A DNA stretch of 39,640 nucleotides, from NCBI GenBank assembly GCA_030526225.1, contig JAUNDF010000009.1, positions 1 to 39,640 of the forward strand. The letters are read 5' to 3'. Of the stretch, positions 6,045 through 34,346 are shown piece after piece. The position numbers were made by a program, and so were the translations under genes. The stretch's first letter is position 1, and each line of letters begins with the position of its first letter. The notes beneath the pieces were generated by a model. The model saw only the letters and a list, made by a program, of their open reading frames with translations. It was not told the origin of the DNA and ran no database searches. This DNA is from Clostridia bacterium. GTDB taxonomy: Bacteria > Bacillota > Clostridia > Christensenellales > Aristaeellaceae.

Positions 6045-7061
6045 ATGGAGCATAAGCCCGGAACAGACAAGAAGCCCGGAACGGACCTGATGGACCGGCT
6101 GGTGCGCCGCTACAGGCGCAGGAAGGGAACCATGCGTCCCCACAAGCGGCGCATGCATCTCCTCCTGCGGGCAGTACAGGCTGTGCTGGGGGCAGTGATG
6201 GTCATCTGCCTCGTATCCCTGATTCAGTACGGCGTGGATTATGTAAGCATCCGCAGCCAGCAGGCGGAGCTGCAGACCATCTACACCGAAACGGAGGCTC
6301 CCGCGGCGGAACCAACGCCTCAGCCGCCTGCCGTGGTGACAGCGTAGAACAAGGGCGCAGAGGATGCCGCCCTGATGCTGCCCCTGCCGGAGGAAACAAC
6401 CGCTCCCGTATCAAATATGCTGCCGGCGGTGCAGTATCCGGACAATCCCATGCTGATTTACACCGAGCCCATCCGCAAGCTGAAGCGCACCAACGAGGAC
6501 ATCGTGGGTTGGCTGGCTGTGCCGGAGCTGCTGGAAACGCCGGTGGTCCTGCGGGACAACAGCTACTACCTTCGTCGTGATTATCAGGGCCGCCGCAACA
6601 CCAACGGCTGCATCTTCATGGATGAAAACGTGAACCTGCGCACCCGGCCCTATCTGCTGATGCTCTTCGGACACAACATGAAGACCGAGGAGATGTTCGG
6701 CTTCCTGCACCGCTACAGCGATTACCAGTATTTCCGCAAGCATGCCCTGATGGACTTCAACACCCAGTATGAGGATGGCAAGTATGTGGCGGTGGCTACG
6801 GCTAACGTTGAAATCAATCAGGTGAATCTATACACCCTCTACACCACCAGCAAAACCGAGCGCCAGCGCATGATTGACCGCCTGTTGTCGCTTTCCGAGG
6901 TGGTGTGTCCGGTGGAGGTAAAGGCTGATGACCAGCTGCTGGTGCTGGTCACCTGCACCGGCTCCGACCACTATCGCCGCATCGTGATTGCCCGCCGCCT
7001 TCGCGATGGGGAAACAGAAGCGGAGATTCAAAAGCAGCTGGCCAATGTGTATCCGAGGTAA
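6045..7061 (+). CDS. Class B sortase with in-frame amber codon
   Basis: Read through one TAG at 6345-6347 (codon 101), this gives a 338-residue sortase, a membrane-anchored cysteine transpeptidase that joins surface proteins to the cell wall. It has a basic cytoplasmic N terminus, one membrane helix (about 46-68), a Pro/Thr/Glu-rich linker carrying the TAG, then the sortase barrel. Catalytic His210 lies in LMLFGHNMK, Cys304 in LVTCTG and Arg312 in HYRRIVIARR, the class B pattern. The part before the TAG has no catalytic domain, and the part after it has no anchor and no good ribosome site, so only the joined product makes sense. AAGGAGG precedes ATG 6045; it ends with TAA. No substrate with a sorting signal lies nearby. 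Confidence 0.85.
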
Positions 7062-7392: not shown

Positions 7393-9669
7393 ATGGTGAA
7401 GCTTTACGATACCGGTATTTTTCTGGTAAACGGCAACGAGATTGTCACCGATCCTGCTGCTCTGCCCTCCAAGTGCGGCCGCGCCGTTACCAAGGAAGAG
7501 GCCACCAAGGGCACCATGGCCTATGGCATCATTAAGGCCCACAACACCACCGATGACATGGACAACCTGCGTCTGAAGTTCGACAGCATGACCAGCCATG
7601 ACATCACCTATGTCGGCATTATCCAGACTGCCCGCGCTTCCGGCATGAAGGAATTCCCCCTGCCTTATGTTCTGACCAACTGCCACAACAGCCTGTGCGC
7701 TGTGGGCGGCACCATCAACGAGGACGACCACAAGTTCGCCCTGTCCGCTGCCCACAAGTATGGCGGCATTTATGTACCCACCAACATGGCCAATCTGCAC
7801 AGCTACAACCGTGAGATGATGGCTGGCTGCGGCCGCATGATTCTGGGCTCCGACTCCCACACCCGCTACGGCGCTCTGGGCACCATGGCCGTGGGCGAAG
7901 GCGGCGGCGAGTTGGCCAAGCAGCTGCTCAAGCGCACCTATGACTTTGCCCGTCCCGGCGTGATTGCCATCTACCTCACCGGCAGCCCCCGTCCCGGCGT
8001 TGGCCCTCAGGACGTGGCTCTGTCCATCATCGGCGCCGTGTACAAGAACGGCTATGTAAAGAACAAGGTGATGGAGTTCGTGGGCCCCGGCATCGCCAGC
8101 CTGCCCATCGAATACCGCAACTCCATTGACGTTATGACCACTGAGACCACCTGCTGGTCCTCCATCTGGGTCACCGACGACAACACCAAGAATTACCTGA
8201 CCATGCATGGCCGTCCCGAGGCTTACAAGAAGATTGAGCCCGCCGACGTGGCTTACTATGATGGCTGCGTATATGTGGACCTGTCCACCGTGGAGTGCAC
8301 CATCGCCATGCCCATGCACCCCTCCAACACCTACACCATCCACGAGCTGCAGGCCAATGCCGCCGACATCCTGCGTGAGGTGGAAAAGGCTGCCAACGAG
8401 CAGATCAACCATGACAACGGCGCTCGCATGGATCTGGTATCCAAGCTGCGCAACGGCGACATCTGGGTTGACCAGGGCGAAATCGCCGGCTGCTCCGGCG
8501 GTACCTTCGACAACATCTGCGCCGCTGCCGACATCCTGCGCGGCCGCAGCTGCGGCAATGGCACCTTCAGCCTGAATGTGTACCCCGGCTCCATGCCCGC
8601 TCTGCATGAGCTGTACAACAACGGCTGTGCCGCCGACCTGATTGCCGCCGGTGCCGTGATGCGTGAATGCTTCTGCGGTCCCTGCTTCGGTGCAGGCGAT
8701 ACCCCCGCCAACGGCGAGTTCTCCATCCGCCACACCACCCGCAACTTCCCCAACCGCGAAGGCTCCAAGCCCGGTGAGGGTCAGATGAGCGCCGTGGCCC
8801 TGATGGATGCCCGTTCCATCGCCGCCACCGCTGCCAACGGCGGTAAGCTGACCGCCGCCACCGACATCGAGGTGGAATACACCAACCCCGAGTATCACTT
8901 CAACCCCGGCATCTACGAAAAGCGCGTGTACAACGGCTGGGGCAAGCCCGAGGCCGATGCCGAGCTGAAGTTTGGCCCCAACATCAAGGACTGGCCCGAA
9001 ATGCCCGCCCTGACCGATGACCTGCTGGTGAAGGTTTGCGCCTACATCACCGACCCCGTAACCACCACCGACGAGCTGATTCCCTCCGGTGAGACCTCTT
9101 CCTACCGCTCCAACCCCGAGCGCCTGAGCGAGTTCTGCCTGAGCCGCCGCGTGCCCGAGTATGTTGGCCGCAGCAAGGAAATGCGCCAGATTGAGCGCGA
9201 CCGTGAGGCCGGCAAGGCTCTGCCCGAGGAAGTGATGAATGTCTACGCAGCCCTGACCGCTGCCGGCATCGCCAACGACCCCGCCAACACCGACATCGGC
9301 TCCACCATCTTCGCCAACATGCCCGGTGACGGCTCTGCCCGTGAGCAGGCTGCCTCCTGCCAGCGCGTGATGGGTGGTTCCGCCAACTTCGCCAAGGCTT
9401 ATGCCACCAAGCGTTATCGCTCCAACTGCATCAACTGGGGCATGACTCCCTTCCTGGTGGAAAATCCAGAGGTGTTCGGCCTGGGTGACTATATCTTCGT
9501 GCCCGGCATCCGCAAGGCTGTGCTGGCTAACCTGGACAGCTTCTCCGCCTATGCCGTAACCACCGAAGGCAAGGTCACCGAGTTCAAGGTATCCACCGCC
9601 GCCCTGACCGAGACCGAGCGTCAGATCATCGCCGACGGCTGCCTGATCAACTACTATCGCAATCACTAA
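7393..9669 (+). CDS. Aconitase-family [4Fe-4S] hydratase
   Basis: This 758-residue protein is a full-length member of the aconitase superfamily. [14 protein letters not shown] (about 152-165) is the classic substrate-site region. The cluster ligands appear to be Cys367 (AGCSGG) and Cys428/Cys431 (CGPC), matching the C...CxxC pattern of aconitase, and [16 protein letters not shown] follows as in the family. It resembles the YbhJ-like 'hydratase' branch more than citrate-cycle aconitase, so the substrate is uncertain. It is monocistronic, with its own promoter and terminator, and its codon use is strongly biased, suggesting high expression. It ends with TAA and has no internal TAG. Confidence 0.85.
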
Positions 9670-9681
9670 TTCCAAATAAGA

Positions 9682-9716
9682 ATCCGCCCGACCAAGATAC
9701 GGTCGGGCGGATTTTT
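9682..9716 (+). terminator. Terminator of the aconitase-family gene
   Basis: Stem ATCCGCCCGACC / GGTCGGGCGGAT with a short loop, followed by TTTTT. It may also stop the convergent small amber gene. Confidence 0.9.
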
Positions 9717-9758
9717 CGTGCAGAAATCTATCACAGAAAACAGAATCAATTTTATGCG

Positions 9759-9905
9759 TCAGGTGGCTGTGGCTTCATCAATAATAGTGTCCAAATATTC
9801 TTCTAATTCGTCCAATGTACACCCAATTTGACCTGAACAGCGGTCCTATTCTACAGCGAGTAGTTCTTCACGAATTAACTGCAAGCGTTCCGGACAGATA
9901 TTCAT
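9759..9905 (-). CDS. Small protein visible only if TAG is sense
   Basis: Read with TAG as an amino acid, this gives 48 residues: MNICPERLQLIREELLAVE, the amber residue 20 (9846-9848), then an acidic helical-looking half containing TLDELEEYLDTIIDEA. It ends with TGA. Signals in front of it are good: TTGACA-17-TATTGT on the minus strand at 9945-9973 and AAAGGAAAG before ATG 9905. Without readthrough it would be a 19-residue peptide. The shape (a short amphipathic helix with an acidic C-terminal half) recalls small antitoxin-like or adaptor proteins, but I do not recognise the family and no toxin gene is adjacent. Confidence 0.6.
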
Positions 9906-9944
9906 GATTATCTTTCCTTTCATTGAACTATACTGATGATATAT

Positions 9945-9973
9945 ACAATAATCATGTCAAAGGATAATGTCAA
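9945..9973 (-). promoter_or_regulatory. Promoter of the small amber gene
   Basis: A perfect TTGACA with TATTGT 17 bases away on the minus strand, about 40 bases upstream of ATG 9905. A second TTGACAT lies inside the spacer. Confidence 0.6.
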
Positions 9974-10031
9974 CACATTGGTTGTTAACCAGATTGATGG
10001 CATTTGTGCGGTTTCTCTGCTGTTTCAATTG

Positions 10032-10078
10032 CCCTCTCAGTCGCTTCGCGACAGCTCCCCCAGAGTGGGAGCCTTTTT
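10032..10078. repeat. Dispersed repeat family B, copy 1
   Basis: It begins CCCTCTCAGTCGC and ends GGGAGCCTTTTT, with two internal hairpins (TCGC/GCGA and CTCCC/GGGAG). An inverted copy follows at 10096-10145 and another copy runs off the window end at 39596. The gap 9906-10315 holds only this repeat pair, the promoter at 9945 and the hpf terminator. Confidence 0.8.
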
Positions 10079-10095
10079 AGTGAGTTGTGCATATG

Positions 10096-10145
10096 AAAGG
10101 CTCGCCCTTTGGGAGAGCTGTCAGCTTTAGCTGACTGAGAGGGTT
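10096..10145. repeat. Dispersed repeat family B, copy 2 (inverted)
   Basis: The reverse complement begins AACCCTCTCAGTCAGC and closely matches the copy at 39596-39640. It faces copy 1 across 17 bases, so transcription through this region could form one long hairpin of about 115 bases. Confidence 0.8.
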
Positions 10146-10202
10146 CGGCTGCAGTGCTGCAACGAGCATGAGCGTTAAAAAGAGTTTTTGTAGAAAAGAA
10201 TA

Positions 10203-10236
10203 CAAAAACGCCGGGCCACCTGCAAAGGACCCGGCC
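10203..10236 (-). terminator. Terminator of hpf
   Basis: On the minus strand a GCCGGG / CCCGGC stem with an 18-base loop region is followed by TTTTTG, about 80 bases after the hpf stop. Confidence 0.75.
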
Positions 10237-10315
10237 AGCCGTCAGGCTATTGTTCTGTTGGAATATAAGCAGCCCTTGGGCTATTGATTATAATGCTGAT
10301 ATAAGGCTGTCCCGC

Positions 10316-10855
10316 TCAGGCTTCCGGCTCCATCAGACCATAATCGCCGTCCTTGCGCAGGTACAGGACATTGGTGCGCTCGGTGTCGCTGTTGACGAAC
10401 ACGAAGAAGTCATGGCCCAGCAGTTCCATCTGCATCATGGCCTCTTCCACAGCCATGGGACGGGTGGTGAACTGCTTGTGGCGGACCACCTTGTGATCCT
10501 CCTCGGCAACCTCTTCCTCGATAAATTCGGGTGCCTCGGGGGTGAAGGCATCGTCACGCAGGCGCTTGCTCAGCTTGGTGCGGTGGCGGTGAATCTGCTT
10601 CTCCATCTTGGCCAGAGCCTGGTCGATGGCCAGGAACAGGTTATCCTGCTCGCTTGCCTCGGAGCGGAGAATCACATTGTCGCCCAGAGGAACGGTCAGC
10701 TCAACCACGCGGCGGCCGTTCTTCTCCTGCTTCATGGTGACGTGCATTTCGGTATCCTGGGGGAGGTACCGGCTCATGCGCTCGGTTTTGCGTTCGATGC
10801 GTTGGGTCACAGCAGCGGACACGTTCATGTTCTTTCCTCGGATGTTCAGCTTCAT
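10316..10855 (-). CDS. hpf: Ribosome hibernation promoting factor, long form
   Basis: This 179-residue protein has the N-terminal ribosome-binding domain (MKLNIRGKNMNVSAAV at the start, IERKTERMSRYLP following) and a C-terminal dimerisation domain (RHKQFTTRPMAVEEAMMQM, GHDFFVFVNSDTERTNVLY). Long HPF alone forms inactive 100S ribosome dimers in stationary phase; this length is standard for Bacillota. AAAGGAG precedes ATG 10855. It ends with TGA. It is monocistronic with a long upstream leader and no internal TAG. Confidence 0.95.
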   Translation of the reverse strand: MKLNIRGKNMNVSAAVTQRIERKTERMSRYLPQDTEMHVTMKQEKNGRRVVELTVPLGDNVILRSEASEQDNLFLAIDQALAKMEKQIHRHRTKLSKRLRDDAFTPEAPEFIEEEVAEEDHKVVRHKQFTTRPMAVEEAMMQMELLGHDFFVFVNSDTERTNVLYLRKDGDYGLMEPEA

Positions 10856-11094: not shown

Positions 11095-11802
11095 TTACAG
11101 TCTTCCGTTCATGATGGAAAGAATCAGGGTGCCGTTGTTGAAGATGCCGGCAAGGGTGCTTTCCTGCAGCAGCTGACTGACAAGGTCGATGGGCACCATG
11201 GTCTAAACCAGCGGGACCACAGTGAACAGCGCGTAGCAAATCAGCACGCCCCGTGCAAAGCCGAACACGGCACCGGCCAGCCAGTCAAGGCGCTTGAGCA
11301 GGGGGAAGCGGAACACGGCCCGAAGCATGTTAATCACGCAGGAAATCAGGAAATACAGCACCGCAAAGCACACAAGGAAGCACAGAATGTTGATGGACGC
11401 GGACAGAATCGTCTGGCTGACATAATCCGACACGCCGGACAGGCCCGAGGGGGTGTAGACCCTGCCGGTCAGGTTCACCTGCAGCAGGGTATCCAGCGGC
11501 GCGGGCAGATGGACCTTTTCCACAATCTGTGCGATTCTCTCTGCCGTCAGGGTGGATACATTGGCGATGGCCATCTCCAGGTCGCCGATGCGCCGGGAGG
11601 CATCGGTGTAGTGCAGCAGGGTGCGCACCAGATCGCCGTTGGCGGCAATGGCGGCGGCCAGCTTCGGGTACAGGGCAAAGGAAAGTCCGAAGGCGGCCAG
11701 CCCGCCGCCCACATTCAGCACCGTGCTGACAAAGCCGCGGTAAATGCCCATCAGCACACTGAAGCCGAGGACGAAAAGAATAACATAGTCAATCAGGTTC
11801 AT
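11095..11802 (-). CDS. CvpA family membrane protein with in-frame amber codon
   Basis: This is a 235-residue CvpA-like protein. It starts MNLIDYVILFVLGFSVLMGI, followed by four predicted membrane helices; CvpA proteins are linked to envelope integrity and, in E. coli, colicin V production. TAG at 11203-11205 is codon 200. Reading continues for 35 residues (PIDLVSQLLQESTLAGIFNN among them) to TAA at 11095, with a terminator directly after. Family members normally continue past the last helix with a short tail of this kind. AGGAGG precedes ATG 11802. It is the last gene of the minus-strand operon, 30 bases after the L,D-transpeptidase. The residue at the TAG is not predictable from the family. 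Confidence 0.8.
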
Positions 11803-13560: not shown

Positions 13561-14568
13561 TTATTGCTCAATTGGCTTCGGACACAGCGTGTCCGCAATT
13601 TCATGGGCGGAAGAGAAACGGAAGGCACAGGGCTCCACGGGGAAGGCATCGTCCGGGTCCAGCAGTGCACCCAGCACACCGCAGCTCATGGCGGCGCGCA
13701 CATCCAGCGGACGGTCGCCAATCATGATGGCCTCCTCCGGACGGATGTCAAACCGCTCCAACGCCGCAAGCACCATGTCCGGTGCAGGCTTTCGGGGGAA
13801 GCCGTCCTCCCGGGTGACGGCGCCGGAGAAAAAGCTGTCCAGCCCCGCGTGGCGCAGGCCGTCCCAGCAGGAATTGTCCCGATGGGTGACCATGTATTGG
13901 CGGATGCCCCTTGTCTGCAGGGCGCGCACCGTTTCCGGGATGCCTGCAATGGGCCTGCAGCAGGCATTCTCGCTGTTGTGCGGGGGAATGCGGCTGCGGA
14001 TGGCGTGTTTGTCAAGGCCGCCCCGGGCAGACAGCACGGCGATGCAGTAGGGCATGCCCACCCGCATCAGGGCGGCAATCTCCTCTTCATCTGCGGGGAT
14101 GTCAAGGTCGCGGCAGATGGTGTGCATCAGGGCAATCATGTCCGGATAGGTATCCATCAGCGTGCCGTCATAATCCCACAGCACGGCGCGGATGGGTGCT
14201 TCCGTCAGGGAAATGCGCCGGGCGATGGCCACATCCGCCGGACAGAAACGGTGATACAGCAGCTCCCGGGGCGTGACCCACAGCATGGCCTCGTGTTCGG
14301 TGCAGACCGGCTCGCCCTGCGCCGTGCAGGAGAGAAAATCAAAGGTGATGCCCTGGGCCTGTGCCGTTTCCAGCAGCCGGACATCCGAAACGGTGAGCCG
14401 AAGCTATTCCTGCAGTTCACGAATCAGGCAGCCGGCGGGGGATTCGTTTTCCTCCTGCTTGCCGCCGGGGAATTCCCACAGGTGGGCGTTGTGCTTGCCG
14501 GCAGGCCGTTTGCAGATGAGAATGCGCCCGTCATCGCGGCGGATGATGCCCGCAGAGACACGCGTCAT
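13561..14568 (-). CDS. Nudix hydrolase-HAD phosphatase fusion with amber codon in the Nudix box
   Basis: Read through TAG 14404-14406 (codon 55), this is a 335-residue fusion. Residues 1-125 form a MutT-like Nudix domain: [14 protein letters not shown] and RELQE followed by the amber residue. In MutT (REUXEEXGU) the TAG falls on the second E of EE, a metal ligand, so Glu is expected there. Residues 130-335 form a HAD phosphatase with [11 protein letters not shown] (Asp132, Asp134) and [12 protein letters not shown]. Such a protein could clean the nucleotide pool, the HAD part dephosphorylating the Nudix product. ATG 14568 overlaps the endonuclease IV stop (ATGA). It ends with TAA, 15 bases before the L,D-transpeptidase. 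Neither piece alone is a complete Nudix domain. Confidence 0.85.
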
Positions 14569-15395
14569 ACCCACTTCTCCTTCAGCAGGGCAATCTCGGC
14601 CTGATAGCCGTCCAGCTCGTTGGGGGTCTCCAGATAGAAGGGCAGATGGCGCAGGGCGGGATGCTGCATCACGCCCAGAATGCCCTCGGTGCCGATGTAG
14701 CCCAGACCGATTTTCTCGTGCCGGTCCTTGTGGGCACCCAGCGGGTTCTTGCTGTCGTTGATGTGCACGGCCTTCAGCCTGTCAAGGCCGATGACACGGT
14801 CGAACTCGCCCAGCACATCCTCCAGATGGTTCACGATATCGTAGCCCGCATCGTTGACATGGCAGGTATCCATGCAGATGCCCACCTTGTCCTTCAGCTC
14901 CACCCGGTCGATGATGGCGCGCAGCTCCTCAAAGCGGCTGCCCACCTCGCTGCCCTTGCCGGCCATGGTTTCCAGCAGCACGGTGGTCTGCATCTCCGGC
15001 CAGAGGATGGCGTTGAGCATGTCGGCAATCTGCTCAATGCCCACATCAACACCCTGTCCCACATGGCTGCCGGGGTGGAAGTTGTACAGGTTGCCGGGGA
15101 CATACTCCATCCGCTGCAGATCATCCAGCATGGTGCGGCGGGCAAAATCACGGATGGATTCATCCTTGCTGCAGCCGTTGAGGGTATAGGGGGCGTGGGC
15201 AAGGATGATGTCGATGCCGTTTTGCGCGGCATAATCCCGGAAGGCAAGGCAATCCTTTTCATCCACGGCCTTGGCACTGCCGCCGCGGGGATTGCGGGTG
15301 AAGAACTGGAAGGTGTTGCCGCCGATGGATACGATTTCCCTGCCCATGTGGGCGTAGCCCTTGGAGGCAGACAGATGACAGCCGATTTTCAGCAT
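14565..15395 (-). CDS. nfo: Endonuclease IV (AP endonuclease)
   Basis: This 276-residue protein matches the Nfo/AP endonuclease 2 family in length and motifs: [11 protein letters not shown] at the start, [45 protein letters not shown] and [18 protein letters not shown]. These supply the His/Glu/Asp zinc ligands. It incises DNA 5' of abasic sites in base excision repair. AAAGGAAC precedes ATG 15395. It ends with TGA that overlaps the ATG of the Nudix-HAD gene, so the two repair-related products are translationally coupled. Confidence 0.95.
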
Positions 15396-15434: not shown

Positions 15435-17231
15435 TTATCCTGCGTTTTCTGCCAGCTGCCGGACCAGGCGCTCAATGTGCGCTCTGGCCTCGCCGGCGAA
15501 CAGGGCGGTGGTTTCGGGGGATTGGGGCGTGTCGCCCATCAGCCCGACAAACTGGCTGATTTTCAGGCCCAGCGCTTCCTGCATTTCTGCATCGCTCCCT
15601 TGGGGGCTGACCAGATAGTAGCACAGCAGGGAATCCTCCTGACCGATGCGGTGGGCTCTGTCCTCGGCCTGGGAATGAACCGCAGGGCTCCAGTCCAGCT
15701 CGCCGAAGACCACACAGGTGGCCCGCTGAAGGTTCAGGCCGCTGGCCGCCCTAAGAGAAATGCACAGCAAATCTGTTTTCTCCGTCATAAACCGGGTTAC
15801 GGCGGTATCCTTGGCGGAGGCGCTTTCCCGGCCGGTGATAAAGCTGGGGCTGTGGTGCTTCAGCTCCTTTTTGTAGATGTCCATCACCTCGTGATGATGG
15901 GCAAACAGCAGTACCTTTTCGCCGCCCTCCAGCAGCATTTTCACAAACTGGCACACATAGGGCGCCTTGGCGATGCCGGTGGCCTGCCGTGCCTGACGGC
16001 AGATGCTTTCCTCCAGCAATGCCCGCTCGGAGGCAGACATTTCCTTTTTGGTGCGCCACTGCATCAGCTTCGGGGTCAGCTGGGCCATCAGCTTGGCGTA
16101 TACGGTGTCATTCCAGTCAAGCTATTGCACCAGTCGGCGCTTGGGGGGCAGCTCCTTTAACACCTGCTGCTTGGTGCGGCGAAGTATCAGCCCTTCCCGG
16201 CGGAGATAATCCCCCAGCAAATCGGGCTTGATGACCACCGCATTGCCGTAGCCGTAGCACCATTCACGGGAGAAGCTTTCCCAATCCCCGAGGAAGTGGT
16301 AATCCAGAATGTTGATTACATTCCAGATTTCGCCGCCGGTGTTGTAGATGGGTGTGCCGGAAAGGCCGATGACATGGCCGCACTGCTCGGCCAGCAGGCT
16401 TGCGGCGGAATACTTTTCCGTGCCCGCGTGGCGCAGCTCCTGAATTTCGTCAAAGATGACGGCACGGACGGGCAGCGTCTTCAGTGCTTCCTTCCAGCCC
16501 CGCAGCAGCAGATAGTGCATGATGTACACATCCGCCTCAGGCAGGTCATAGGGGGTCAGGCCCTTGATGATGTGGATGCGCGGGGGTCTGCCGTCGATGG
16601 AAAGAAAGCGGCTTGCCTCCTCCTGCCAGTTGCGGGTCAGGTGTGCCGGCGGAATCACCAGCACGGGGAAGTGTCTGGTGGCGGCGATGCAGGCCAATGC
16701 CTGCACGGTTTTGCCAAGGCCCATTTCATCGGCCAGCAGGCACCGGTCGTGGGTCAGAAGGAAGGCCAACCCCTCCTGCTGGAAGGGGCGCAGCCTGCCG
16801 TGGAAGGTGCCCTCCGGCGGTGTGGCGGATTGGGGCATCAGGGCGGCGCGCTCCTTTCGGATGGCGGCCTCCCGTGCTTCGCCAACGGCCTTGTCCCACA
16901 AGGGCAGGTCCTGCAGCTTAATCTGCAGCGGGAAGCGCAACATCAGCCAGCACAGATCTCCCACAGCCCTGCGGTGGGCGGTGAACCGTGCTTCGCCCCG
17001 TTTGCTCCCCGCAGAGCCGGGAAACAGGCGCTTGCACATCTCTGTGACGGAAGGGTCGCCCTTCACCACCCAGCATTTGCTGCGGCGGTTGTAGGAAAGG
17101 GTGCCGTAGGTATGCCCGGCTTGCTCCACCGGGCGCAGGTACGCCGGGAGGAGATCATCATCCGTGTCCTCCGAGCCGCCGGAAAGGCCGGGGGAATCCT
17201 CGGACTCGTACCAGTCTTCGTATTCGGTCAT
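15435..17231 (-). CDS. SNF2-family DNA helicase/translocase with in-frame amber codon
   Basis: Read through TAG 16122-16124 (codon 370), this is a 598-residue SWI/SNF2 ATPase. The N-terminal RecA lobe has DEMGLGKTVQAL (Walker A Lys174), VIFDEIQELRHAGT (motif II) and GLSGTPIYN (motif III). The second lobe, entirely after the TAG, has LCISLRAASGLNLQRAT (motif V) and EDRAHRIGQEDSLLCYYLV (motif VI). The TAG sits between LPPKRRLVQ and LDWNDTVYAKL, the normal SNF2 linker. Neither half alone could act as an ATPase. The ATG at 17231 overlaps the nuclease stop (ATGA). It ends with TAA. Its partner is likely the small nuclease encoded just upstream. Confidence 0.88.
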
Positions 17232-17584
17232 AGGGCGATCCCCCATAATTTGTTCAGGCAGATGGCGGCAACGGGCTTGCCGCAAAGGGTACGGGGCAGG
17301 GCAACGGAGCCCTCGCACACGGCCACCAGCGCGGTGATGCCGTCACAGCCGGCATAGCGGGTCAGCTGCGAAATCAGCTTTTTCCGGTCGGGCTTGCCGC
17401 GCTTGATTTCCAGCCCCACGCCGCCGCAGAGCAAATCAATGCGGCAGCGCGGGCCAAGCTTTGCCTCGTGGACAAAGGGAATGCCGCGGGCGGCGAGGGT
17501 ATCCATCACGATTTGGTGCAGGTCATATTCGCCCTGCTGGATGGGTGCGCGGATGGTCTTCAGCGTGGCGATGATTTCGTCCAT
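17228..17584 (-). CDS. Small PD-(D/E)xK-like (VRR-NUC type) nuclease
   Basis: A 118-residue protein with GPRCRIDLL followed by GLEIKRGKPDRKKLISQL, which fits the D...ExK core of the restriction-like fold as seen in stand-alone VRR-NUC domains. ATG 17584 has GGGG 8 bases upstream; a GTG at 17590 overlapping the PBP stop is an alternative. It ends with TGA overlapping the SNF2 start. VRR-NUC domains often travel with SNF2 helicases in phages and mobile DNA, so this pair may have entered the operon together. The fold assignment is by motif only. Confidence 0.7.
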   Translation of the reverse strand: MDEIIATLKTIRAPIQQGEYDLHQIVMDTLAARGIPFVHEAKLGPRCRIDLLCGGVGLEIKRGKPDRKKLISQLTRYAGCDGITALVAVCEGSVALPRTLCGKPVAAICLNKLWGIAL

Positions 17585-28856: not shown

Positions 28857-30227
28857 ATGTCAAGATTCAAACGGCTGAATCCGTTTTCTGATAAGGAATA
28901 TCTGTCAAGGCTGGCGGCGCTGACGCTCCCCATGGTGCTGCAGCACCTGATGCTGGCCAGTGTCGCTGTCAGCGATGCGTTTATGCTGGGCAGTCTGGAA
29001 CAGAACGCCATGTCGGCGGTGTCTCTGGCAACCCAGATTCAGTTTATTCAGAATGTGCTTCTCGGCGGCATGACGGCGGCTGTATCCGTACTGGCGGCCC
29101 AGTACTGGGGCAAAAAGGACAGCAGCACCGTCCGGCAGATTATGGCCATCGGTGTCCGCGTGGGCTCGCTGATTTCCGTGGTGTTTGCCCTGGGCTGTCT
29201 GGTGTTCCCGGCGCAGCTGATGCGCATCTTCACCAATGCCCCATAGCTGGTGGAAATCGGTCAGGTGTACCTGCGCATTGCAGGCTTCTCCTACCTGCTG
29301 ACGGGCATCACCCAGCCCATGATGACGGTCATTAAGGCCACGGATCACCCGAAGCAGACGGCAAAAATCAGCTCCTGCACGGTGCTGCTGAACATCATCC
29401 TCAACGCGGTGCTGATTTTCGGCCTGTTCGGCGTGCCCCGCATGGGGGTGGCCGGTGCCGCCATCGCCACGCTCATCAGCCGCGTGTTTGAGCTGGTGTG
29501 GGTGCTGGCAACGCTGCGCAAGCCCGGCTATGTGTCTCTGCCGCTGAACAAGCTGCTGGAGCGCAACCGGCTGCTGAGCCGTGACTTTTTCAAAACCATG
29601 TACCCGCTGGTGGGTGCGGGCCTGTTCTGGGGCGTGGGCTTTGTCAGCTACAGCGCCTTCATGGGCCATATGGGCACCGATGCCGTGGCGGCCAACTCCG
29701 TGGCCTCGGTGGTGCGCGATATCATCTGCTGCCTGTGCGACGGCCTTGCCGGCGGCGGCGGTGTGCTGGTGGGCAACGAGCTGGGCGCAGGCCATCTGGA
29801 AACCGGCAGGCTGTACGGCAACCGCACCACCATCCTTGCCTACATCATCGGCTTTGTTTCCACCCTGCTGATGCTGGCCCTTACGCCGCTGGTGGTCAGC
29901 GTGGTGCGCCTGACCCCGGCTGCCTCGGATTACCTGTACGGCATGATGTGCATCATGGCCTTCTACATGATTGGCCGCGCGGTGAACACGGTGGTCATCA
30001 ACGGCATTTTTGCCGCCGGCGGCGATACGCTGTTTGATATGTACTCGCTGGCGGTAACCATGTGGGGCATTGCGGTGCCGCTGGCCGCCCTTGGCACCTT
30101 TGTGTTCCACTGGCCGCCGCTGCTGGTCTACGCCTTCACCTGTTTGGATGAGGTGGGCAAAATTCCGTGGGTGATGATTCACTACCGCAAGTACAAGTGG
30201 GTCAAGGACCTGACGCGGGAATTCTGA
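28857..30227 (+). CDS. MATE family efflux transporter with in-frame amber codon
   Basis: Read through TAG 29244-29246 (codon 130), this is a 456-residue MATE/DinF-like antiporter with about twelve membrane helices. It starts with ALTLPMVLQHLMLASVAV and ends with a cytoplasmic tail. The TAG lies in RIFTNAP-amber-LVEIGQVYLRI, where family members usually have FTNDPE or similar, so Glu (or Gln/Ala) is expected. The first piece has only three or four helices and the second has no start codon or ribosome site after the TAG. AGGAGG precedes ATG 28857. It ends with TGA. Confidence 0.88.
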
Positions 30228-33289: not shown

Positions 33290-34141
33290 TTATTCCTGCG
33301 CGTCTGCGAAGGATATCAATGCCTGCAGATGCTTATCCGCCACGGCCCGGCCATGGTCATAGGCAGCCTGCAGCCGGTCGGGGTTGTGCTATGGGGAGGA
33401 GACGGCCAGCTTCATTTCCGGGCGGATGACCAGCGTATTGCCCTGCTCCTCACAGGCGCTGACATAATCCAGCTGGGCGTTATAGGCATCGTGGCGGCGG
33501 GCAAGTGTCTCCGGCAGGGCGGGATAACGGCGGTAGAACAGGCGCATCAGGGGCACCAGCTTGTTGGGCTGCTTGCGGTAGCCCTCCGGCTGGGTAAGGA
33601 TGACGATGTTCCGTTCATAGCCCAGCTGCTGCATTTTCTTCAGGGGGATGGAGTCGGAAATGCCGCCGTCCAGCATGGGCCTGCCGTCAATCATCACCAT
33701 GCGGGAGGCCAGCGGCATGGAGGCCGATGCCTGAATCCAGCGCAAATCCCGCTCATCGCCCTTGTCGCATTTGGCATAGACGGGCAGACCCGTTTCCACA
33801 TCGGTGCAAACGGCGTAATAGGCGCAGGGGGATGCGGCAAAGGCCTTGCTGTCGAAAACATCCAGCTCAAGGGGAACACGGCGGTAGCAGAAATCCTCGC
33901 CGTACAGGTCGCCTGTCAGCAGCCACGAGCGGAAGGACGCATACCGCCATTCCTTGCAGAAGCGCTTGTTGTAGCGCAGTGCGCGTCCCTTCTGATTGGA
34001 TTTGTAGTTGCAGCCGAAGGCGGCCCCGGCGGATACGCCCATAATGCCGTCCACCGCGATGCCGTTCTCCATCATCACATCCAGCACACCGGCGGTGAAC
34101 AGGCCCCGCATGGCTCCACCCTCCAGCACCAGTCCCAACAT
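33290..34141 (-). CDS. Patatin-like phospholipase with in-frame amber codon
   Basis: Read through TAG 33389-33391 (codon 251), this is a 283-residue patatin-fold lipid acyl hydrolase. It has the oxyanion loop EGGAMRG (7-13), GVSAG with Ser37, and LDGG with Asp159. After the TAG comes HNPDRLQAAYDHGRAVADKH and ends TAA. Relatives typically read S-R-T-E-K-D-P-E-K-L followed by YDLG, so the amber residue aligns with a Glu and the tail is the normal patatin C terminus. ATG 34141 has GGGAG 9 bases upstream; ATG 34147 is an alternative. It is divergent from the LysR gene; substrate unknown. Confidence 0.87.
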
Positions 34142-34346
34142 TGACATCAGCTCCCTCTCTGAATTGTATACAATATGACCGGCAGGTATAACAGCTGCTT
34201 TATACTGCCCTGTATGGCGGCATCCGTCCGGATGTTCAGGCTGCCCGCAGGATATCGGCAAGGCCGGTCATCTGCCGAAAACGATTGAATATAACAAAAA
34301 CATGAATAACTTTCCAATAAAATTCTATAAACCCGGCACTTATCCC

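Follow-up and report, generated by a model that had tools for sequence, protein, structure and literature searches.

A TAG-containing frame in a Clostridia bacterium is very probably the remainder of a Phd/YefM-type antitoxin gene, with UAG read as glutamate

Can a short frame with a TAG in its middle be a gene, and if so, of what kind? This question is raised by the minus strand of the window, by which we mean the whole 39,640-nucleotide stretch of a Clostridia bacterium genome that was analysed. The frame was found where a sequence-only reading had placed it, running from 9905 to 9759 with a TAG at codon 20 and a TGA stop, and standard-code tools cut its 48 codons at the TAG, as that reading had also held. 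The strand reads MNICPERLQLIREELLAVE, the TAG, DRCSGQIGCTLDELEEYLDTIIDEATAT and then TGA. The frame and its surroundings comprise the following features.

9759..9905 (minus): 48-codon frame, very probably a truncated Phd/YefM-type antitoxin gene; codons 1-5 are the antitoxin start and codons 6-48 the toxin-binding C-terminal half
9759-9761 (minus): TGA stop of the 48-codon frame
9846..9848 (minus): in-frame TAG at codon 20, evidently read as Glu; E in all 81 homologues
9890..9891 (minus): apparent deletion junction between codons 5 and 6, where the 43 codons of the DNA-binding half (family residues 6-48) are gone
9915..9920 (minus): AAAGGA, a ribosome-binding-site-like stretch just 5′ of the ATG, read from the sequence
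9945..9973 (minus): sigma-70-like promoter TTGACA-17-TATTGT, by consensus match alone (10/12)
9681..9713 (minus): terminator-like hairpin 3′ of the 48-codon frame, 14 pairs of which 9 are G-C
7393-9669 (plus): aconitase-family gene, beyond the hairpin
10316-10855 (minus): HPF/RaiA-like ribosome-associated gene, upstream of the small frame

The promoter motif that had been claimed for the frame was present at 9973-9945 with its 17-base spacing, and comparison with homologues lent it no support; the sequence upstream of the frame aligned with that of relatives no better than shuffled sequence did (88/200 shuffles were equally good). A promoter scan gave 3 promoter-like sites in 750 bases vs 0.7 in shuffles. 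The claimed ribosome site was likewise seen, as AAAGGA. An ORF of 48 codons with a 10/12 promoter match is, taken alone, no proof of a gene. No Rfam match pointed to a known RNA element in the window, and no orthologous intergenic region was recovered by DNA comparison among 60 relatives. The near-perfect hairpin at 9681-9713 could end both the aconitase-family gene on the plus strand and the small frame on the minus strand. A palindromic repeat (CCCTCTCAGTCGCTTCGCGACAGCTCCC...) lies beside the frame at window positions 10020-10150, and its CCCTCTCAGTC core occurs in 9 of the 61 sampled stretches of the host genome.

It is homology that lifts the 48-codon frame above chance. In a tblastn search of 7.3 Gb of plasmids, the first match (E = 5e-4) was a gene annotated as 'prevent-host-death protein' that adjoins a 'plasmid stabilization protein'. 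A similar antitoxin-toxin pair was present in two members of the host's bacterial family; the antitoxins of these pairs matched Pfam PhdYeFM_antitox and the toxins tested matched ParE_toxin. A wider scan gave 267 relatives, and the best 80 of them were taken together with one viral contig. These 81 relatives come from Firmicutes and others, and nearly all are antitoxins of 86-127 aa, many of them adjoining a ParE/RelE-like toxin of ~105-110 aa that starts at +6 or -35 bases. No phage match pointed to a phage source of the gene; one relative lies on the viral contig.

A profile built from the relatives only, with the window left out, recovered the window frame with E = 1.2e-14. The sequence-only reading had staked the gene on homologues for the part beyond the TAG, and these were found: the residues after the TAG alone scored E = 2.5e-7 (Z = 10000). 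That reading had written X at position 20, and here the residue can be named, as the column occupied by the TAG holds E in 81/81 relatives (79 by pattern and 2 that read VEEDK), which makes it glutamate. Full-length relatives match PF02604 at the N-terminus (residues 1-69 or 3-56). The 48-codon frame itself has no Pfam match, and the N-terminal Phd/YefM DNA-binding domain is absent from it. The toxin-binding C-terminal segment of the antitoxin subfamily, to which the profile score above refers, is present, with the near-invariant residues from position 12 kept.

The missing half can be accounted for by an in-frame deletion. Full-length relatives begin MNI(R/K)P, more fully MNI(R/K)PSAAIRQNYNEIA..., and their residue 49 opens EKMLKLREELLAVEEDR. 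In the window frame MNICP is joined directly to ERLQLIREELLAVE, which continues at family residue 49, and the frame is therefore an antitoxin that has lost 43 codons in frame. Codons 2-5 equal the start of one relative in 11 of 12 bases, and a match as good occurs at only 3 of 39,414 ATG sites in 0.9 Mb of the host genome, which favours a deletion within an antitoxin gene over a new start. The frame very probably descends from a type II toxin-antitoxin operon, as what is left of its Phd/YefM-type antitoxin gene: an in-frame deletion of 43 codons brought codons 1-5, the start included, up against the toxin-binding C-terminal half, and the toxin gene is gone. At 9301-10400 there was no toxin ORF or convincing remnant of one (best tblastn match 6 residues, E = 0.05), and the terminator hairpin directly 3′ of the frame lies too close for a toxin gene to fit in front of it. 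Elsewhere in the host, contig C1 carries a Phd-type antitoxin of a different kind together with a ParE-type toxin, and contig C122 carries another ParE-type toxin, ~30% identical to the toxins of the frame's antitoxin family; neither is clearly cognate to the frame. We hold with considerable confidence that the frame is the remainder of a Phd/YefM-type antitoxin gene with UAG read as Glu, a statement about its identity and its code and not about its function. The earlier term 'small gene' was apt in that the sequence is genuinely gene-derived; rather than a small gene of the ordinary sort, however, it is what shortening has left of a normal antitoxin gene of 88-96 aa.

What the remainder does is a separate matter, and it is probably either a relic or an orphan mini-antitoxin. 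Because the genome reads UAG as Glu, the frame continues past the TAG and, if translated, would give the 48-residue peptide MNICPERLQLIREELLAVE(E)DRCSGQIGCTLDELEEYLDTIIDEATAT. We infer that the frame is transcribed and translated. Our preferred working reading, which we hold tentatively and give somewhat less than an even chance, is that the peptide is a putative orphan antitoxin that has kept its binding to the family's ParE/RelE-type toxins and no longer represses its own promoter. The second part would follow, if the peptide is expressed, from a toxin-binding tail without DNA-binding function.

The main competitor of this function, and of nothing else in our account, is a non-functional relic of the same origin and the same code, that is, a decaying leftover without a product that matters; its chances we put at about even. 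Both the toxin and the DNA-binding half are gone, and many orphan antitoxins have been judged to be degraded systems (PMC7354431). In an alignment with 75 relatives, the residues that none of them has fall into two groups, one at the junction (8-11) and one at 23-26: L8, Q9 and I11 differ from residues that are invariant in the family, whereas C23, S24 and Q26 are found in no relative. Such unusual residues are what relaxed constraint would be expected to produce. The codon usage is foreign as well, with a GC3 of 37% where genes typical of the window have some 75-85%; the frame is therefore poorly adapted to the host genome, and this suggests a horizontal origin. Against decay, there is no frameshift and no TAA or TGA within the frame, the deletion preserved the frame, the start codon and ribosome site are still there, and, with the TAG site counted as Glu, the retained half has lost none of its near-invariant residues from R12 on. 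The retained residues would favour residual function, but the junction changes, the codon usage and the lack of comparison strains make a relic at least as likely.

All of this supposes that TAG is a sense codon in this genome. For comparison with 61 stretches (0.91 Mb) of the host genome, a well-assembled relative from its family (G090) supplied 0.8 Mb at first and 1.6 Mb later. Of the TAGs met after coding sequence in the host, spread over many contigs, 61/79 had coding sequence beyond them in the same frame; the same count in the relative was 0/5. Where coding sequence followed a TAA or TGA, it belonged to the next gene with a new start. The interrupted genes include several that we take, from reading their sequences, to be MutS, MutL, DnaG, RpoD, PolC, a RecD-type helicase, an OmpR-type regulator, and ArsR-type and GNAT proteins. 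The sequence-only reading had proposed that small genes in particular are missed in this organism; this did not hold, as the standard code cuts genes of every size, MutS, MutL, DnaG, RpoD and PolC among them. Cases in the window are the following.

6045..7061 (plus): sortase-like gene with an in-frame TAG at 6345-6347
11095..11802 (minus): CvpA-like gene whose Colicin_V domain spans the TAG at 11203-11205
13561..14574 (minus): Nudix-HAD fusion whose Nudix box (RELQE[TAG]LRL) has the TAG at 14404-14406 in a conserved Glu position
15435..17318 (minus): SNF2-type helicase whose SNF2 domain spans the TAG at 16122-16124
28857..30227 (plus): MATE transporter whose MatE domain spans the TAG at 29244-29246, where the relative has E
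33290..34261 (minus): patatin-like phospholipase whose DUF6363 domain spans the TAG at 33389-33391

A Nudix domain and an HAD phosphatase domain form one frame at 13561-14574 if the TAG is read through.

If TAG were an ordinary stop, the locus would be a nonsense-mutated pseudogene that yields at most a 19-aa peptide. A nonsense mutation is plausible in a deleted, partnerless antitoxin, and a tRNA with a CUA anticodon was not found in the draft assembly. However, 61 of the 79 coding contexts have TAG in an internal position, essential genes included, against none of five in the relative, domains span the TAG, and in the small frame it falls on a Glu column in all relatives. We therefore regard an ordinary stop as very improbable.

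The meaning of the codon was read from 22 well-aligned TAG columns, in which the relative's residue was E 13 times, D three times, Q twice, and G, I, K and T once each. For calibration, GAG codons face E at 0.60 and D at 0.10, and CAG codons face Q at 0.47 and E at 0.11. The resulting posterior was about 1 for Glu and 1.2e-8 for Gln. A reading as Gln could appeal to the TAG of MutL, which faces Q in the relative, and to precedent: Gln is the usual reading of reassigned UAG, in phages, many gut phages among them (PMC10879173), and in eukaryotes (PMC8629427). But its log-likelihood was 18.2 units below that of Glu, two Q against 13 E is far from what CAG codons give, and it is the conserved Glu position of the Nudix box that carries TAG. 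Gln is, in our judgement, even less probable than an ordinary stop. From these sequence comparisons, TAG is evidently a sense codon for Glu across the host genome, and UAA and UGA are still stops.

The in-frame TAGs could also be sequencing or assembly errors or G-to-T DNA damage, given that GAG to TAG needs a single G-to-T change and that the assembly is in draft state, with 136 contigs; yet GAA occurs almost as often as GAG (29.4 vs 32.7 per thousand) and in-frame TAA within genes was not seen, which excludes DNA damage as the cause and leaves this explanation with next to no weight. Equally little remains for a chance ORF with a chance promoter, to which the modest length of 48 codons with one stop and an upstream region that aligns no better than shuffles would lend themselves, as homology on both sides of the TAG refutes it.

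The decoding machinery was surveyed in the draft assembly, which is 79.8% complete and about 2.2 Mb in size. RF1 was not found in this 79.8%-complete assembly, and it is present in 36/36 searched family members that are at least 90% complete. Nor was RF2 found in the host assembly, yet it must exist in the host, because UGA ends genes there, as does UAA; the relatives carry RF1 and RF2. A tRNA with a CUA anticodon was found neither among the tRNAs detected in the incomplete draft nor by pattern search, and tRNA-Ile and tRNA-Tyr are likewise missing from the draft. Because RF2, tRNA-Ile and tRNA-Tyr are missing too, the assembly is incomplete and such gaps come in part from its draft state; taken alone, the missing RF1 is therefore weak evidence. 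The one pattern match for a CUA anticodon proved to be the known tRNA-Arg(TCT) of contig C115. A weak match on contig C12 (472-538) was a degenerate tRNA-like sequence with CGC, not CUA, in the anticodon loop; its acceptor stem is degenerate, and an integrating element may have left it behind as a truncated copy.

The larger result is the bacterial UAG = Glu code; the small frame, a shortened orphan antitoxin, is a modest case by itself and matters for having exposed the code change. If the code is as proposed, UAG is still rare in this organism, and the reassignment lends itself to direct comparison with family members that use the standard code. Such a comparison would bear on how RF1 was lost, which tRNA took over the codon, and how phages and transferred genes cope. 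Standard annotation leaves many of the organism's genes broken, and the completeness score may be too low. The full combination would be an ordinary-sized, fairly high-GC bacterium that reads UAG as Glu genome-wide and still stops at UAA and UGA, which would make it the first case of UAG reassigned in a bacterium, and that has in addition kept an antitoxin cut down to its toxin-binding tail as a working orphan mini-antitoxin. We consider this combination possible but on the whole doubtful.

Compared with known systems, what appears new here is the bacterial UAG = Glu code, and the small gene is a shortened offshoot of an antitoxin lineage. With Phd/YefM (PF02604) and ParE/RelE (PF05016) pairs it shares the C-terminal half (LREELLAVEEDR..G..GCTLDELD.YLD.II), the start codon and MNI.P, and it differs from them in lacking the DNA-binding half (residues 6-48) and the toxin gene and in having TAG in place of an invariant Glu codon. 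It falls short of a working toxin-antitoxin locus in two defining features. Orphan antitoxins and anti-addiction modules, which are thought to be remnants or to protect against the toxins of incoming elements, are alike in being antitoxin-derived genes without a toxin partner; they differ in that here only the toxin-binding tail is left and cross-neutralisation is hypothetical (PMC7354431).

As for the code, the bacterial reassignments of stop codons described in the literature consulted all concern UGA, read as Trp or Gly (PMC8629427, PMC13092985). They resemble the present case in that a stop triplet serves as a sense codon genome-wide and in that this was inferred from aligned conserved columns, whereas the codon here is UAG and its meaning Glu. 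We found no report of UAG = Glu in any bacterium in the open-access literature, a scope that leaves subscription papers and preprints largely outside. UAG is known to be read as Gln in gut phages (PMC10879173); the codon is common to both cases, but here it occurs in chromosomal housekeeping genes and stands for Glu. In trypanosomatids (Blastocrithidia), UAR is read as Glu (PMC12153298): UAG means Glu in both, but there it belongs to a eukaryotic nuclear code in which UAA is Glu as well, and here to a bacterium in which UAA is a stop.
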